64,000 nt of DNA from Methanolobus sediminis. Its GTDB lineage: Archaea; Halobacteriota; Methanosarcinia; Methanosarcinales; Methanosarcinaceae. Each line of letters begins with the position of its first letter. Positions within the stretch are counted from its first letter, which is position 1. The stretch lies in NCBI RefSeq assembly GCF_031312595.1, contig NZ_CP133592.1:2604001-2668000 (forward strand), written 5' to 3'. A model generated the notes under the pieces. The model was not told the DNA's origin, searched no databases, and worked only from the letters and a program-made list of their open reading frames with translations. Position numbers and translations under genes: made by a program. Positions 5,123 through 31,355 of the stretch are shown in pieces.

Positions 5123-6769
5123 TCACTGGTCGTTTTTCTCTTTCAGAAGCTCAACAGCCAGATCCCTGAGTTTGAACTTCTGTATTTTTCCGCTTGCAGT
5201 GAGTGGATAGTCTTCAACGAAGAATACATGTTTCGGAACTTTGTAGCGTGCAATTCTTGCAAGACCAAAGTCCCTGACATCCTCTTCTGTAATGTCAGAG
5301 CCTTCTTCCTTTACTATGAATGCACCGACTATCTCACCATATTTCTGATCCGGTATACCGACGACCTGGGCATTCTTGACACCTGGCATGGTGAAAAGGA
5401 ATTCTTCTATCTCTCTGGGATATATATTCTCGCCGCCACGGATGATCATGTCCTTGATACGGCCGGTGATCTTGTAGTAACCATCCTCGTCAACGGTTGC
5501 AAGGTCACCACTGTGGAGCCATCCGTCCTTGTCAATTGCAAGTTCAGTCATTTCAGGCATCTTGTAGTATCCTTTCATGACATTGTAACCACGACAGCAT
5601 ATTTCTCCCTGCTCATTCGTTCCGACAGTCTCACCGGTTTCCGGGTCAACTATCTTAACCTCTATTTCAGGCATAGATGTTCCCACTGTACTTACACGAC
5701 GCTCTATTGGATCATCTGTACTTGTCTGCGTGAACACAGGCGATGCTTCAGTAAGTCCATAGGCTATTGTGATGTCCTTACAGTGCATCTCGTTGATAAC
5801 ACGTTTCATGGCCTCTATAGGACATGGTGAACCTGCCATGATACCGGTTCTGAGGGATGTAAGGTCAAACATCTTGAACATCGGGTGGCTGAACTCTGCA
5901 ATGAACATAGTTGGCACACCATAGAGGGCTGTACATTTTTCTTTCTGGACAGCAGCAAGTGCCATCAGAGGGTCAAATATTTCCAGCATCACAAGAGTGC
6001 CACCATGGGTAAGTATAGCCATAACACCAAGAACTATTCCAAAACAATGGAAGAGCGGGACAGGGAGACAAAGCCTGTCTATTTCAGTGAACTTCTGCCT
6101 TTCTCCAATATAGTATCCATTGTTAACGATATTATAATGAGTGAGCATAACACCTTTAGGGAAACCAGTGGTTCCTGAAGTGTACTGCATGTTGATGACT
6201 TCATCCTTGTCAAGTGTTTTCATTATGCTTCTGATGGCTTCATCACTGCCGTGCTGCCCAAGAAGCAGGAGTTCACGGGTACTGTACATTCCGCGATGTT
6301 TCTCCTGACCAATGAAAATAACATTTTTCAGACAAGGGAAGTTCTCACTTTTGAGATTTCTACGGCTCTGTGTCTTTAGTTCAGGAACAAGCTCATAAAT
6401 GGTTTCGATATAACTGACATCCCTGAAACCATCTATGATCGCTATGGCTTTCAGGTCCGCCTGTTTCATCAGGTATTCTACTTCATGTATCTTGTATGCC
6501 GTATTCACAGTTACGAAAACTGCGCCAATTTTTGCTGTTGCGAACAGGAAGGTCAGCCATTCAGGAACATTTGTTGCCCATATACCTACATGGTCCCCTT
6601 TACCGATTCCAATCTCAAGCAGGCCTTTGGCCAGCATATTGATACGTTCGTCAAATTCCTTATAGGTAAATCTCAGGTCCCTGTCGGGATAGACGAGGAA
6701 TTCCCTGTCAGGGTCTTTCATAACCTGTTTCTCGAAAAAGTCACCTACCGTATCACTTGTAAAAGGCAT
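5123..6769 (-). CDS. AMP-forming acyl-CoA synthetase
   Basis: 548 residues, the usual length of ANL-superfamily ligases. P-loop-like [11 protein letters not shown] near residue 195, A5 motif AYGLTE, A7 [19 protein letters not shown]8 hinge [13 protein letters not shown], and the catalytic lysine in [10 protein letters not shown] near residue 530. This is a medium/long-chain fatty acyl-CoA synthetase type rather than an acetyl-CoA synthetase; the true acid substrate cannot be read from sequence. Last gene of a minus-strand cassette; the thioesterase ends 17 bases upstream. In a methanogen with isoprenoid lipids it may serve scavenging or detoxification of fatty or aromatic acids, which is inference. 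Confidence 0.88.
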
Positions 6770-6786
6770 GATTAAATCTCCATGAT

Positions 6787-7203
6787 CTATTTACAACTGT
6801 TGTCTTCATTCTGCAGGTGCTCTTCAAGTTTCTTCCTGATGTCATCAGGGATTGGCTCAGACTTTTTGTTTAAAAAGTCATAGTGCACGATTGTTGACCT
6901 GCCGATTGCTCCTTTTGTCCCGTTTTGCCATGCTTCCTGTGTAACTACAAATGAAGAGTTCCCTATCCTTGATATGTAGCTGATGATCTCAACATCGTGT
7001 CCGTAGAACATCTCGCCTACATAATCATATTCTGTCCTTGCCATGATGAGTTTCCAGTTCTCATAGCTCAGGTCAAGGTCAGGTGTGAACAGCCTGAAAA
7101 CCGGGTTTCTGGCCTGTTCGAACCATATGGCAATGGCAATGTTGTTGGCGTGTTTAAGTCCGTCTATATCGCCGAATCGTGGAGTAACAGTTGTTTTGAA
7201 CAT
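6787..7203 (-). CDS. hotdog-fold acyl-CoA thioesterase
   Basis: 138 residues, a single 4HBT-type hotdog domain. Visible hallmarks are the N-terminal [24 protein letters not shown] segment (Asp and the HxN pair typical of the YbgC/4HBT active site) and the downstream [16 protein letters not shown] strand. The family hydrolyses acyl-CoA thioesters. Placed between the regulator and the acyl-CoA synthetase with gaps of only 22 and 17 bases, so almost certainly co-transcribed and acting on the same acyl-CoA pool. The substrate is not inferable. Confidence 0.82.
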
Positions 7204-7225
7204 TTTTATCTACTTCTGGTATTGA

Positions 7226-7801
7226 TTAATAAGGTGCATATACGACTGCCAGTATCTTTGCATCTTCGGTTCCGACTGCATGCACATGATGAGGTACAAC
7301 GGAATCATAGTAAATGCTGTCACCGGTTGCGAGTGTGAAACGGTCCTTGCCGTAAAGGATCTCTATCTGGCCGCTGAGGACGTAAATGAACTCTTCGCCT
7401 TCGTGGGATGATGGATTTGCTTCACCTGACCCTGGGTGAACATCGATGATGAAAGGTTCCATGTGCCGGTCAGCTTTGTCTTTAGCCAGTGAGAAGAAGT
7501 CCAGTGTGCTGTTCTCGCATGTATCGCAGTTGCCGGAAAATCTTACAACATTGTCAGATTCACCGTTTTTGACAACTACCGGTTCATTATTTGGTGCATC
7601 ATCAAGGAAGGTTCCAAGACGAACTCCAAGTGCTCTTGCAATCTGCATGAGCGGAGTAAGTGAAGGAACAAGTGCCCCGTCTTCAAGTTTATTGATAAGT
7701 TCTGCGCTTGTATTACTGTTATTTGCCAGATCTTCCACAGACATGTTCTGCATTTCACGTATCTGACGGATTTTACCACCTAGTATGTTCTTATCAGCCA
7801 T
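7226..7801 (-). CDS. XRE-family transcriptional regulator with cupin sensor domain
   Basis: 191 residues. Residues about 8-63 form an XRE/Cro helix-turn-helix ([20 protein letters not shown]..., [14 protein letters not shown]). Residues about 110-190 form a cupin domain with [13 protein letters not shown] and a late PHHVHAVG histidine pair. A CDTC pair near residues 93-96, between the domains, could bind metal. First gene of the cassette, so probably autoregulatory and controlling the thioesterase and acyl-CoA synthetase, with a small ligand bound by the cupin. That regulatory link is inferred from gene order. Confidence 0.85.
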
Positions 7802-24339: not shown

Positions 24340-25719
24340 CTAAGTAGGATTAACCAGCCAGCAGTGGCAGTTAGCCTGGAAAATATCCTTTCTTGTAAAA
24401 TTAGCCGCAATGCAGCTTCCCCTGCAAACAGAAAGCCACTGGCACCTGCTGCATTCACCTTTCATGTCCGAAGCTTTCAGGCTCCTAAAATAGTTGAGGA
24501 ATCGTGAATTATCCCATATCCACCGGAAGGATTTGTCTTTCACATTCTCAACATCTGCTCCCTCAAAATAGTTACATGGGAGAACATCGCCCTTTGAAGT
24601 GACCGTGCAATATCCTATAGCACCATCACATCCAATTCTTGTATCAGTATTAGTTTCAATTTCCTGTTCCGGAATTGGTCGGAACGTACACTCAAATTCC
24701 ATAGGTGCAATTTCAGGACCATCAGATTCTCTTTTACTGAGCAGGAATTCTGTCAGTTCCCGCATTCTTGCAGGTTTAACTTCCAGATCATAAGCACCTG
24801 TTCCACGTCCGGAAGGAACAAAAGGCAATATTCTGAATGTCTGTACTCCAAGCTCTTTTCCAAGTTCATAGATGTCAGGGATATTATCGATATTCATTGT
24901 GGTTACTGCGGCTGCAAGTGTGACAGGAACACCTGCTTTTACCAGCAATTTTATTCCTTCTACTGTCTTTTGCCATGAACCAGATAACTGGCGGAAATCA
25001 TCATGTATGGCAGGTATACTTGAATCAAGACTCACCTGTGCCCTTGCTCTCATACTTGCAAGTTTTTCAGCAGCAGCTTCGTCTATCAGTGTTCCATTGG
25101 TGGCCACCTGTATCATTATATTTTTGGAAGCGGCATATTCAGCTATATCAAAAAAATCCTTTCTTATCATTGGTTCGCCACCACTGAGTATCAACTGGCC
25201 GACTTCAAAATCAGCAAACTCATCGATAAGCATGCAACAGTCGTCAAAGCTCAGCTCATCGCTGCACTGCTCACCGGCACTCACAACGCAATGCCTGCAT
25301 CTGAGGTTACATTTCGATGTAAGATCCCAGAGCACACCAGCAGGAGCAGGGACTTTCCAGTAGTTCATCCTTTCATTACGCCACCACAAAAGTCCTCGAT
25401 CTGTGAGTCCATCAAGTACCGGTATGCTTTTATCAATCACAGTTTCCCTGTCAGAATGGAAAGATGTACTTAATTGAGTAATAATCTCGTCAAGTGTCCG
25501 GTACCCGTCACACATTTTGAGGAGCCAGTATGCAGCTTCATTCAGCTCCTGAACTTCCGAACTGAGCGGGTCTTTTGTGATCCAGGTGCCATTTTCCTTA
25601 CTTATCCTGAAAGGAAAATAAGGGACAGCAGATCTGTCCGGAAAAACACTTCCACATGTCATCCCGGTATCTACTTTATAATCATCTGCTGTCAATATGC
25701 CAGGCTGTTCTTCTATCAC
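24340..25719 (-). CDS. radical SAM/SPASM peptide-modifying enzyme with N-terminal PqqD-like domain
   Basis: 459 residues starting with GTG that overlaps the stop of the M4 peptidase gene (GTGA), with CGGGGAAAT as ribosome-binding site. Residues about 30-118 resemble a PqqD/RRE peptide-binding domain (ELNEAAYWLLKMCDGYRTLDEI). The radical SAM core has CNLRCRHC (Cys 137, 141, 144) and GGEPMIRKDF. The C-terminal SPASM region carries many Cys (CDGAIGYCTVTSKGDVLPCNYF, CSRCQWLSVCRGSC) for auxiliary 4Fe-4S clusters. Enzymes of this build install thioether or C-C crosslinks in ribosomal peptides. The coupled M4 peptidase and the upstream WC-peptide are candidate partners, by inference. Confidence 0.88.
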   Translation of the reverse strand: MIEEQPGILTADDYKVDTGMTCGSVFPDRSAVPYFPFRISKENGTWITKDPLSSEVQELNEAAYWLLKMCDGYRTLDEIITQLSTSFHSDRETVIDKSIPVLDGLTDRGLLWWRNERMNYWKVPAPAGVLWDLTSKCNLRCRHCVVSAGEQCSDELSFDDCCMLIDEFADFEVGQLILSGGEPMIRKDFFDIAEYAASKNIMIQVATNGTLIDEAAAEKLASMRARAQVSLDSSIPAIHDDFRQLSGSWQKTVEGIKLLVKAGVPVTLAAAVTTMNIDNIPDIYELGKELGVQTFRILPFVPSGRGTGAYDLEVKPARMRELTEFLLSKRESDGPEIAPMEFECTFRPIPEQEIETNTDTRIGCDGAIGYCTVTSKGDVLPCNYFEGADVENVKDKSFRWIWDNSRFLNYFRSLKASDMKGECSRCQWLSVCRGSCIAANFTRKDIFQANCHCWLVNPT

Positions 25720-27827
25720 TTGATTTCCCCGAGCATCACAAGTGTCTTCTTTCTCCAGTCATGTATCTTGTTTTCTGAAATTCCCAGTGTCTTTGACAGC
25801 TCAGTTACCTTCTTTGCGTTCTCTGTTGCCTTCAGGAAGTCTCCCAGTGTTGAAATCGATCTTCCTTTGAACAGGATTGCAGTTTCCGGTCCGATACCTA
25901 CGATATCTATGATGTCTGTTTTCAGTGTAATAACCGGGTTTTTGACACGTATGTACGGATCATATGGCAACGGGTCCGGTCCGGGAAGACATGAAAGTCC
26001 CGGAGATGGCGGACAGGCTATGTAAGGTGACGGTGGACAAACTATCATTGGTGATGGCGGGCATACAAAGTCCGGTGCAGGCGGGCAGATGTAAGGTGCT
26101 GGTGGGCATACAAAGCCTGGTGCAGGTGGACATAGTATATGTGGTGATGGTGGACAGATCATCGGTGCTATCCAGCATATGACCGGACATGTCACAGCCG
26201 TACCAATTCCCACAGCAGCAAATGCATTGATTATGCTTGCTCTCCAGCGTGAATAATGCGGATTGGTCGAGTAGAGATCATCAAGTGAATCCAGTACCGC
26301 ATCCCTCATGTCGCTGAAATCTGAACTTGAAACAAGATGTGTTGTCAGTGCCTGATAATAGAGAAGTCCAAGCACATCACGGCCAAGTCCCTCGCATATC
26401 CTGATTCCCCTGTGCGTTCCACCGGTAGCTATCAGGTAAGCGGCCTTGTTCATGATTCCACTGTTGATGTGGACTCCGCCATAGTCCAGTGCTCCTGTGT
26501 ACTTATCGGTCATATGATCCGGCTGGTGGCCTGCAAGGACACTGGTGATCGGATCAGTAGGATCATAGAGTCCTCCATTGGTAGGATCTTCCAGATTACG
26601 TGCTCCTGGTGCCGATGCCAGTAACCATGGATCCTCTCCATAGATCCAGTTACCGGCTATCAGACAGGAAAATACATCGGACATGGACTCGTTCAATGCG
26701 CCCGATTCCCCACTGTACACCAGGCCTGCGGTGTACTCGGTCACAGCATGTGTCCATTCATGTGCCACCACATCAAGTGAACATAGAGGACCATTGCTGA
26801 TACCATCACCGTTTCCAATTTTAACATAACTGCCGTTCCATGAAGCATTATTCCAGTTGGTTCCACAGTTGGCATAAATATGCATATCAGCTCCTGCATC
26901 ATCATAGCTGTCACGTCCGTGTACTGCGAAGAAATAGTCGTAGACCATTCTTGTATACAGGTGACAGTCAACTTCAGGTCCCTGTCCGGATGCAGACCAA
27001 TTATTATTGCTGTCTTCAGAAACAGGGGCTGGAGGATAGCCGCCATTTGCATCATGGGTAATTACTCTTGCAGAACTTGGTACCCATTGGTCCTCAAGCA
27101 GGTATTTGGCTGTGCCGTGATCGTGTAGTGTGTTGATGGTTACAGAACCTGCATATGTTCCGATCCCCGAACCCGTGGTCCTTGTGTGAGTCTGCTCATT
27201 ATTGTATTTCCAGACTACTTTTCCGGTCAGTGCATCAACAAAATATTCCCATTTGGCAAGTGTTTCTTCCCCGGCAAGATCCTTGTCTATTCCCTCAACT
27301 GAAACATGCCATACAAGATGTGGTTCCTTTACAAACTGCGACAGGATCATCAATGTGGGTTCAGCATGCAGTTTTCCTCTGGAATTATTCTTGTCATCTC
27401 CAAGAGCTGCTTTCAATGCTTCTTCTCCTGTGACCTTTGCCTTGTCCGGCAGGTCAAGTTCAGGAGTTAGCTTTCCGGTTGTTCCTTTAATATTATCGTT
27501 AGCATCGATATGGACTATTATCTCGCTGCCAAAAACAGGCAGTTCCTTGTAGACCTGCTGCATGCGCACATGTCTGGCACCGATACGGTCAGTATCGATC
27601 CTTTTAACAAGCATTTCCTTGCTGACAGAATTTAATAAAAAGAGGTCTTTGTTAACTTCCATAAATTCTATGGCAGCTTTTCCCGGATCTTTCTGTTCAG
27701 TTTTTGCAAGCAAGCCTTTGAGTCTAAGTGGAATACCGGTACGTTCATCCCATTTGACATCTACGTTCTCATCGACATTTTTCAGCTTATCGAGTATATC
27801 CTTTTGTTTTCTGACAGGTTCATACAT
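25716..27827 (-). CDS. M4 (thermolysin-like) metallopeptidase with Cys-Pro-Pro repeats and C-terminal HhH domain
   Basis: 703 residues. FTP/PepSY-type propeptide (about 1-215), then an M4 catalytic domain with HEWTH near 354-358 and the third zinc ligand in GALNESMSD, and a late GGVHINSGIMNKA. After it comes a proline/cysteine array at about 545-620: seven CPP[SA]P units at 7-8 residue spacing, flanked by degenerate copies. The last 70 residues (IDIVGIGPETAILFKGRSISTLGDFL...) are a helix-hairpin-helix DUF4332-like domain normally found in the cytoplasm. No signal peptide is visible, unusual for a thermolysin relative with a propeptide. The start has GGGGGAGATAGGTA just upstream. The radical SAM gene overlaps its stop codon. 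Confidence 0.9.
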   Translation of the reverse strand: MYEPVRKQKDILDKLKNVDENVDVKWDERTGIPLRLKGLLAKTEQKDPGKAAIEFMEVNKDLFLLNSVSKEMLVKRIDTDRIGARHVRMQQVYKELPVFGSEIIVHIDANDNIKGTTGKLTPELDLPDKAKVTGEEALKAALGDDKNNSRGKLHAEPTLMILSQFVKEPHLVWHVSVEGIDKDLAGEETLAKWEYFVDALTGKVVWKYNNEQTHTRTTGSGIGTYAGSVTINTLHDHGTAKYLLEDQWVPSSARVITHDANGGYPPAPVSEDSNNNWSASGQGPEVDCHLYTRMVYDYFFAVHGRDSYDDAGADMHIYANCGTNWNNASWNGSYVKIGNGDGISNGPLCSLDVVAHEWTHAVTEYTAGLVYSGESGALNESMSDVFSCLIAGNWIYGEDPWLLASAPGARNLEDPTNGGLYDPTDPITSVLAGHQPDHMTDKYTGALDYGGVHINSGIMNKAAYLIATGGTHRGIRICEGLGRDVLGLLYYQALTTHLVSSSDFSDMRDAVLDSLDDLYSTNPHYSRWRASIINAFAAVGIGTAVTCPVICWIAPMICPPSPHILCPPAPGFVCPPAPYICPPAPDFVCPPSPMIVCPPSPYIACPPSPGLSCLPGPDPLPYDPYIRVKNPVITLKTDIIDIVGIGPETAILFKGRSISTLGDFLKATENAKKVTELSKTLGISENKIHDWRKKTLVMLGEIK
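25975..26200 (-). repeat. CPP[SA]P-encoding repeat array in M4 peptidase
   Basis: Imperfect 21-24 base repeats encode units such as CPPSPHIL, CPPAPGFV, CPPAPYI, CPPAPDFV, CPPSPMIV, CPPSPYIA and CPPSPGLS. Each unit keeps one Cys followed by two or three Pro and then two or three hydrophobic or small residues, so the cysteines are regularly spaced along what is probably a polyproline-like rod. Confidence 0.85.
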
Positions 27828-28047
27828 TACCTATCTCCCCCTGGACAGTTCCCACTATCCTGATAGCACGTTAGTCAGGGCAAATGAAAAAGATTGCAGA
27901 CCTTTCCTAGAGCACCCCTGCCCGGCCAGATTCAGAACCTTCCCCTATTACTTATTACCCTTAATATAAATTCCAGCTAATAATCTATAAAGTTTGCTCT
28001 GGAATTCAGCTTAATATCTTAAAATAAGTTAAAATAAGTTAAAATAA
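27828..28047. other. spacer between WC-peptide gene and M4 peptidase, with short tandem repeat
   Basis: AAAATAAGTT occurs twice in tandem (28021-28040) followed by a partial third copy (28041-28047), right at the end of the peptide gene. AATTTATATTAAGG on the minus strand near 27962-27975 is a possible TATA element for the peptidase operon, so the peptidase/radical SAM pair may have its own promoter. Confidence 0.45.
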
Positions 28048-28245
28048 CTAATCCATTTTCTCTTTTTTCTTCTTTTCTTCTTCCTCAACGGTAGTATTAT
28101 CACACCATGCATCAACTTCAAGATCCGCTGCACTTTTCATAGAGTCATTTGAGTCTGGCACTGTGCACCATGTATCGATCTGTTCATCAAGGCTTGGTAT
28201 CTCTATATCTTTCATTTCTTTCTTTTTCATATCCTTTTTATCCAT
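28048..28245 (-). CDS. 65-residue charged peptide with two WC motifs, possible RiPP precursor
   Basis: Starts at ATG 28245 after AGAGAGGGTTGA. The sequence is a Lys/Met/Asp-rich head (MDKKDMKKKEMKDIEIPSL), then two related segments, EQIDTWCTVPDS and LEVDAWCDNTTV, 21 residues apart, and a Glu/Lys tail. The shared pattern is [IV]D-x-WC. No transmembrane segment. Lying on the same strand just upstream of an M4 peptidase and a PqqD-domain radical SAM/SPASM enzyme, it is the natural candidate substrate. I recognise no characterised family, and a role as a small metal- or protein-binding peptide is equally open. Confidence 0.65.
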   Translation of the reverse strand: MDKKDMKKKEMKDIEIPSLDEQIDTWCTVPDSNDSMKSAADLEVDAWCDNTTVEEEEKKKKEKMD

Positions 28246-30602: not shown

Positions 30603-31355
30603 TTACAGCATCGGACTGATTGTCCTTAGTTCTATTATCTGTCCCCACATGTGGAAACTCATCATATCATCACGTGGATAAGCTGTGAATCTGATTTCTG
30701 TTCCATCAGTTCTGAATTCTTCTGGCAGGTTTGTGGGGTCATATTTTGTATCGTCAGCACCCACAATTCCAAAAAAGCCACCTTCAAGGTTGTTGTATGT
30801 CACAGTTCCGGTATCAGTTATAAGCCCGCTTTCTGGAATTACCTGGATTGTCAGTTCATAGCCGTCTTCGGTTCCTGTAATTTCTTCCCATGGGCGCACG
30901 TAAATTGCGGATATGCTTTGTTCACCTGTTTCAATGACTTCAAAAATCCACATGTGAGAACCGCCTGCACCAACAAGAGTTACATTAGCACTTGCCTGGG
31001 TATATACATCCTCTTGAACCTCAAGTCCTTCACTGTATGTCATATTCCATGAGTAACCGGTTGTGGGATTCTCTTCAAGTTCAACTATAATTAGATCTCC
31101 AATAATGGCATAGACTGTACTCTGGCTGTCGTTCTCTGAAAAACTATGACTAACTGCTGTCATTGTTCCTATGGAAACGCCAGAATTATCGATGGTTCCT
31201 GTCTGATCTTCTATGTTTTGTGTTGCATTGCTATTGTCATCAATGCTGGTGTTACTACCGGTATCACTGCCGGCATCTTTGCTGTTTGATACACAGCCTG
31301 AAGCCATACATACAAGCAAGACAACTGCTGCAACCATAAGTAATTTGATGTTCAT
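30603..31355 (-). CDS. chagasin-like (I42) protease-inhibitor lipoprotein
   Basis: 250 residues. Signal sequence with lipobox ASGC at about 18-21, a low-complexity Asp/Ser/Asn/Thr linker, then an I42 domain with all three inhibitor loops recognisable: ENPTTGYSWN, GAGGSHMWIFEV and YVRPWEE. Such proteins inhibit papain-type cysteine peptidases. The C-terminal 70 residues (YNNLEGGFFGIVGADDTKYDP..., HMWGQIIELRTI) form an additional small domain I cannot name. Anchored outside the membrane by lipid. Confidence 0.82.
   Translation of the reverse strand: MNIKLLMVAAVVLLVCMASGCVSNSKDAGSDTGSNTSIDDNSNATQNIEDQTGTIDNSGVSIGTMTAVSHSFSENDSQSTVYAIIGDLIIVELEENPTTGYSWNMTYSEGLEVQEDVYTQASANVTLVGAGGSHMWIFEVIETGEQSISAIYVRPWEEITGTEDGYELTIQVIPESGLITDTGTVTYNNLEGGFFGIVGADDTKYDPTNLPEEFRTDGTEIRFTAYPRDDMMSFHMWGQIIELRTISPML

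Follow-up and report, generated by a model that had tools for sequence, protein, structure and literature searches.

The stretch of DNA analysed here (the window) comprises 64,000 nucleotides of Methanolobus sediminis (contig NZ_CP133592.1, positions 2,604,001 to 2,668,000), and the locus under study is formed by three genes on its reverse strand, which encode a radical S-adenosylmethionine (SAM) enzyme with a PqqD-like domain, an M4 peptidase, and a small peptide with two Trp-Cys (WC) segments. An earlier interpretation made from the letters of this DNA (the sequence-only reading) took the three genes for possible parts of a pathway for a ribosomally synthesized and post-translationally modified peptide (RiPP). 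Their coordinates, strands and annotations were confirmed by open reading frames (ORFs), Pfam matches and matches to pro-thermolysin, and the features are as follows:

24340..25719 (-), PqqD-radical SAM/SPASM enzyme, 459 residues, GTG start; PF05402, PF04055 and PF13186 above Pfam cut-offs
25387..25572 (-), PqqD-like recognition domain of the enzyme (RiPP recognition element, RRE), residues 50-111; PF05402, E 2e-8
24361..24630 (-), SPASM domain of the enzyme, residues 364-453, with a seven-cysteine pattern; PF13186 and invariant alignment columns
25716..27827 (-), M4 (thermolysin-like) peptidase with a repeat tail, 703 residues; PF01447 105 bits, PF02868 117 bits, FTP propeptide
26205..27176 (-), catalytic domains of the M4 protein, residues 218-541; Pfam and phmmer to pro-thermolysin
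25971..26189 (-), Cys/Pro repeat tail of the M4 protein, residues 547-619, candidate substrate; from the translation
25716..25970 (-), C-terminal segment behind the M4 tail, residues 620-703 and the stop codon; HhH-like PF14520, E 0.034, sub-threshold
28048..28245 (-), WC peptide, 65 residues, two WC segments, 220 bases upstream of the M4 gene; orthologue alignment

The radical SAM enzyme exceeds the Pfam cut-offs with all three of its domains (PqqD 34.9 bits, Radical_SAM 85.1 bits, SPASM 34.9 bits), and its PF05402 match is the only one in the whole genome. The CxxxCxxC motif (CNLRCRHC) and the seven SPASM cysteines are kept across its relatives, and the hallmarks of a sactipeptide maturase, namely the CxxxCxxC core, the cysteines of the SPASM auxiliary clusters and the RRE, are all present. 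The overlap of the enzyme's start with the M4 stop codon, claimed before, amounts to 4 bases (AAGTGATAG). None of the NCBIfam equivalog models reached its cut-off with the enzyme. The best matches, those to the heme-pathway radical SAM proteins AhbD and NirJ (215.8 and 208.6 bits), fell far under the cut-off of 500 and were rejected as its identity, as were the streptosactin maturase family NF045574 (135.8 bits vs. 625) and the mycofactocin and PQQ maturases (172.7 bits vs. 265 and 103.9 bits vs. 381, respectively). A distinct AhbD-like gene is also encoded in the enzyme-positive genomes.

The M4 protein aligns with pro-thermolysin (5a3y) over residues 23-541 (phmmer, E 2e-75), and its HEWTH and NESMSD motifs, which provide the HExxH and the distal Glu of family M4, are present in 14/14 orthologues. 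A hydrophobic N-terminal segment was not seen in it, and neither it nor the other tail-bearing proteins described below have an obvious signal peptide. The catalytic domain is followed by CPVICWIAPMICPPSPHILCPPAPGFVCPPAPYICPPAPDFVCPPSPMIVCPPSPYIACPPSPGLSCLPGPDP and then by about 84 further residues; neither the repeats nor the segment behind them had figured in the sequence-only reading. The units of this tail read CPVI, CWIAPMI, CPPSPHIL, CPPAPGFV, CPPAPYI, CPPAPDFV, CPPSPMIV, CPPSPYIA, CPPSPGLS and CLPGPDP. In 14 Methanolobus genomes, the M4 tail contains 9-11 C-x-x-[GAS]-P units of the form CPPSPxxx or CPPAPxxx, and it was not present on M4 homologues outside Methanolobus. Eleven of these tails can be aligned in register: the Cys is replaced in 0/9 positions, though 7/9 Cys codons vary, the residue at +3 varies between A and S only, and the residues at +5 to +7 drift. 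As the cysteines remain constant while their codons vary, and as the change permitted at +3 is so limited next to the drift at +5 to +7, the aligned sequences indicate purifying selection on the Cys, the prolines and the small +3 residue. Units with an odd interior (CWIAP, CLPGP) also retain A or G at +3. When the Methanolobus neighbourhoods were compared, a transporter or immunity gene conserved beside the M4 and enzyme genes was not found.

In a family-level survey of 111 genomes, including 27 of Methanolobus, the enzyme and the M4 protein were found in the identical 14/27 Methanolobus genomes, and they were adjacent in 14/14. An enzyme profile search across the order (185 genomes) gave a bimodal result, with 23 full-length relatives at E <= 3e-168 and the rest matching in the radical SAM part only, at E >= 2e-88. 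A protein with C-x-x-[G/A/S]-(x)-P repeats is paired with each of these enzymes (23/23): an M4 protease in 14 cases, an S8 subtilase in 2, a caspase-fold protein in 3 and a CIS13-type fibre in 4. The tail is the sole part common to the four carrier types, which range from 318 to 1395 residues in length, and a conserved C-terminal segment lies behind it in every carrier type seen. It adjoins the enzyme on one contig in 22/23 cases; in G480, the enzyme and the fibre are placed at the ends of two contigs that are contiguous in the relative G482.

The S8 carriers belong to two Methanosarcina genomes, in which a 40%-identical enzyme adjoins the subtilase. Their C-termini (CLRAPQIICLRAPQII...CLRGPIQ in G098 and CPPAPKICPPGPIRC... 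in G084) contain the same CPPxP unit as the Methanolobus M4 protein. The subtilase gene of G084 is split across contigs inside the repeats (end of L114, start of L047), with the tail end beside the enzyme, and such tails may often be split or missed in draft assemblies. A 105-residue protein by the Methanosarcina enzyme (L046:8506-8823 (-), L047:1861-2181 (+)) resembles the N-terminal propeptide of the S8 carrier and is possibly a stand-alone inhibitor or chaperone.

In three further genomes (G003, G273 and G444), the enzyme gene is located downstream of one for a 318-350-residue protein that ends in CRTGLPDMTLH repeats and CAAGP units and for which no Pfam match, no plasmid match and no convincing PDB sequence match were obtained. 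Upon alignment of nine homologues, H105-G106 (His-Gly) and C141 (Ser-Cys) were found to be invariant. A structure model from these nine sequences is usable at residues 40-245 (an earlier two-sequence model was poor), and it matches SAVED-CHAT (VIA Z 16.9) and gingipain (16.7) over about 180 residues, as well as separase, legumain and caspases. Because of the invariant His-Gly and Ser-Cys pairs and these matches, the third carrier is, as modelled, a clan CD caspase-fold protein and a putative cysteine peptidase. The PqqD match is weak in the enzymes of this group (E 0.0084), and another scan of the group gave none. Proteins with sub-threshold similarity to the transthyretin-like TTR-52 lie upstream of the caspase-fold carriers (L146:8062-8754, L157:4585-5166) and likewise upstream of truncated copies in L177 and L178.

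The fourth type of carrier was found in four Methanoperedens-like genomes, where the enzyme adjoins fibre-like proteins of 1171-1395 residues with an N-terminal CIS13 match and with CLAGKPDNTIT or CPAGQPDTPCTMGG repeats, up to 22 Cys in one fibre. Beside the fibre carriers are eCIS_core proteins, and a full contractile-injection locus is present in G480. Several of the eCIS_core-type proteins near the enzyme in these loci (L217, L182, L214, L215) show an LLLQRTIGNQA motif. The sheath family PF04984 was detected in 4/4 fibre-type genomes and in just 1/14 enzyme-positive Methanolobus genomes, and on the latter count the possibility that the M4 protease is cargo of an extracellular contractile injection system (eCIS) was rejected.

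The occurrence of the tail without the enzyme was tested with DNA patterns so strict that some true tails escape them. The pattern for two CPPxP units matched 12/185 genomes and that for three C-x-x-G-x-P units 4/185, and all 16 positive genomes are among the 23 with the enzyme. There were no matches in the 162 enzyme-negative genomes, and none for reversed-pattern controls. The nearest S8 homologues of the enzyme-negative G091 and G095 (40-41% identical) stop at residues 464-466, which is where the tail would start, and carry no tail. As the genomes are related, the pairing counts do not represent independent events; the four different carriers represent several independent enzyme-tail associations. 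A phylum-wide sample added only one enzyme relative, an intermediate one from outside the order (G127, E 1.5e-106). In a midpoint-rooted tree, the tail-associated enzymes and G127 grouped apart from the other sampled radical SAM proteins (99/100), with an outgroup of our choice and with long branches for L182 and G127. At the G127 locus (L145:3050-5374 (-) and 5890-7314 (+)), a divergent neighbour ORF of the enzyme gene encodes a protein with HEVGHWLNLYH, by eye an M43-like metalloprotease. Among plasmids, the enzyme of the caspase-fold group matched mostly radical SAM domains, none of the matches covering 80%, and the window enzyme gave 14 records at 80% coverage, the best of which was mftB+mftC.

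Among 172 clustered Cys, 81% are followed by G, A or S at +3, as compared with 9% at +1, 24% at +2 and 5% at +4, and since the count includes a few non-tail cysteines, the real percentage in tails is higher. Pro is frequent at +4 or +5. In streptosactin, the SPASM enzyme GggB forms unnested bridges from S to C-alpha between Cys25 and Ser28 and between Cys31 and Gly34 (PMC8172795), and QhpD introduces intra-protein thioethers into a dehydrogenase subunit (PMC8172795). Because the C-x-x-[GAS] spacing matches the i to i+3 bridges of streptosactin, and because QhpD provides a precedent at the level of proteins, we infer that the tail would acquire repeated sactionine-type thioethers from Cys to the C-alpha at +3. 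At the units with Gly at +3, epimerisation and a beta-carbon link are ruled out, as Gly has neither a side chain nor a stereocentre, whereas an alpha-carbon link is possible.

The explanation that we favour, and that we regard as reasonably probable, is that the radical SAM enzyme is dedicated to the maturation of its neighbour's repeat tail, forming sactionine-type rings on whole proteins. By analogy with RiPP recognition elements, the enzyme would bind the newly made M4 protease through its PqqD-like domain and process the tail at every C-x-x-[G/A/S] unit. The likeliest reaction would be the abstraction of hydrogen at the alpha-carbon of the small +3 residue, followed by closure of a thioether between Cys-S and C-alpha, leading to a chain of small unnested rings with prolines between them. 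What results would be no small secreted peptide but a protease that still functions, with its catalytic domain linked to the C-terminal segment by a rod that is rigid and stable to reduction. The variable number of repeats, the conserved segment behind the tail and its use on an injection-system fibre indicate that the tail is probably a structural rod or anchor. The same enzyme-tail module would act on unrelated carriers elsewhere in the order, and we hold it an evenly balanced matter whether the tail, with its own PqqD-radical SAM/SPASM maturase, is a portable module that four or more unrelated proteins of methane-cycling archaea have acquired, giving thioether-ringed rods. Several observations weigh against this explanation. 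A common PqqD recognition sequence was not identified among the four carriers, the G127 relative has no C-x-x-[GAS] tail nearby, and a few tail cysteines (CPVI, CPAP, CPGP) lack G/A/S at +3. Unmodified Cys/Pro-rich tails can serve as disulfide or metal-binding spacers. The chemistry is a prediction from sequence, and with the enzyme at 136 bits against the NF045574 cut-off of 625, it is deduced solely from the analogy of the motif.

The WC peptide was thought to be the substrate in the sequence-only reading. It is located where claimed, 220 bases upstream of the M4 gene, and both of its WC pairs are invariant in an alignment of 13 orthologues, which marks the 65-residue ORF, judged by this conservation, as a genuine gene. 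However, the peptide is encoded in 27/27 Methanolobus genomes, and also in further genera of Methanosarcinaceae without the M4 and radical SAM genes, and there too both WC pairs are retained. Thus, the part of the RiPP-like arrangement that stood is the coupling of the PqqD-radical SAM/SPASM enzyme to the M4 protein, and the co-occurrence proposed for three genes held for these two; the peptide was not missing where the pair occurs, and it is its presence without the pair that separates it from the enzymes. The WC gene is recurrently flanked by sfsA and, on its opposite side, by a gene for a chagasin-like lipoprotein, an arrangement that we call ancestral, and in most enzyme-positive Methanolobus genomes the M4 and enzyme genes lie between the WC gene and sfsA. 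In G051, the WC gene is placed directly between the chagasin-like gene and sfsA, and the M4 and enzyme genes are on a different contig. In G057, G043 and G042, a gene on the opposite strand separates the WC gene from the M4 gene, and therefore the two cannot share a transcript there. The WC gene is thus apart from the enzyme pair in 4/14 loci, and because of these arrangements and its stable neighbours, its adjacency to the pair reflects shared synteny rather than a three-gene operon. The residues that follow its WC pairs (CTVP, CDNT) fall outside the C-x-x-[G/A/S] motif that accompanies all 23 enzyme relatives, and the peptide was not seen near the enzymes at the Methanosarcina, caspase-fold or fibre loci. 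The peptide, small and charged, is conserved in Methanosarcinaceae, and its two WC segments have the form [E]I[DEK]xWC (window 28048-28245; L098-L112). The chagasin-like lipoprotein that recurs near it (window 30603-31355 (-)) was recognized by eye as a cysteine protease inhibitor-like protein with an ENPTTGYSW motif.

A role of the WC peptide as RiPP precursor, with crosslinks introduced at WC by the radical SAM enzyme and cleavage by the M4 peptidase, is barely credible when the peptide's proximity in most loci and its invariant WC pairs are set against its wider distribution, its separation from the pair in 4/14 loci and its not being seen near the enzymes of the other carriers. Nor does the M4 peptidase appear to be a mere processing enzyme, as it bears a tail of 9-11 repeats itself and is a likely substrate. 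A short leader-core precursor of the classical RiPP kind was not found, and the only candidate substrate in common is the tail on proteins of 318-1395 residues. It is decidedly improbable that the enzyme acts elsewhere, on a small molecule or on the WC peptide, and that the tail stays unmodified, serving as a spacer that forms disulfides or binds metal. Such Cys/Pro spacers occur in other proteins, and AhbD and NirJ are the top NCBIfam matches of the enzyme, though far under their cut-offs. However, enzyme and tail are gained or lost jointly on four carriers, the enzyme-positive genomes already have a distinct AhbD-like gene, and neither disulfides nor metal binding would need a small +3 residue.

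Another alternative retains the enzyme and its tail substrate, but has the modified tail cleaved off as the product, so that protease and RiPP precursor would be one polypeptide, from which the tail is set free when the protease cleaves itself or is activated. Autoprocessing is known of M4 and S8 enzymes, and proteases with intact catalytic motifs, from families unrelated to each other, make up three of the four carrier types, which would be odd if the carrier were arbitrary. We nevertheless find release of the tail rather unlikely, as the fourth carrier is an injection-system fibre and no protease, a defined small molecule is harder to reconcile than a rod with the variable repeats (9-11 units in M4; as many as 22 Cys in one fibre), the C-terminal segment behind the tail is conserved in all carriers seen, and the M4 and enzyme genes have no conserved transporter or immunity gene beside them.

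The proposed maturation of tails on whole proteins can be compared with several known systems. GggB/StsB of streptosactin is likewise a SPASM radical SAM protein, and its unnested Cys-C-alpha bridges from i to i+3, with Ser and Gly as acceptors (PMC8172795), have the spacing and the type of acceptor residue of the tails, but there a short leader-core substrate gives a 14-mer, whereas here the motif is in the tails of 300-1400-residue proteins. QhpD, the radical SAM enzyme for the gamma subunit of QHNDH, forms intra-protein thioethers for structural stability (PMC8172795). Its acceptors are methylene carbons of Asp/Glu, all within a single fixed subunit, in contrast to the G/A/S of the short tandem units on four unrelated carriers, and no QhpD model was among the listed matches of the enzyme. 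The S8 carrier weakly matches the subtilisin-like QhpE, which is a separate processing protease, while here the protease carries the substrate tail. PqqD-type recognition combined with a SPASM radical SAM enzyme is also the property of PqqE/PqqD and MftC/MftB, which convert small precursors into redox cofactors and whose equivalog scores are far under cut-off here. The window M4 protein shares the propeptide and catalytic domains of pro-thermolysin (residues 23-541), and differs from it by having no apparent signal peptide and by the repeat tail with the extra C-terminal segment. Finally, the Methanoperedens-like tail is borne by a protein that matches the CIS13 fibre family NF053767 in an eCIS_core locus, and unlike described eCIS fibres, it has Cys repeats and a neighbouring radical SAM maturase, not found described in the open-access literature.

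In that literature we found no description of protease tails modified by radical SAM enzymes or of radical SAM genes tied to injection-system fibres. If the proposed maturation is true, sactionine-type chemistry, which was previously known from small antimicrobial peptides, would be a modular structural finish on large archaeal proteins, among them proteases and fibres of injection machines. The known protein substrates of radical SAM enzymes would be extended past cases like QhpD, further systems could be searched for by the simple rule of C-x-x-[G/A/S] beside a PqqD-radical SAM gene, and the module would point to a general way of tagging, transferable to proteins of choice. Outside the window, the genome of M. 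sediminis also encodes a phage or injection-system sheath protein (G000:C1:2752978-2753436), whose gene is rare among the relatives from the genus that were tested.

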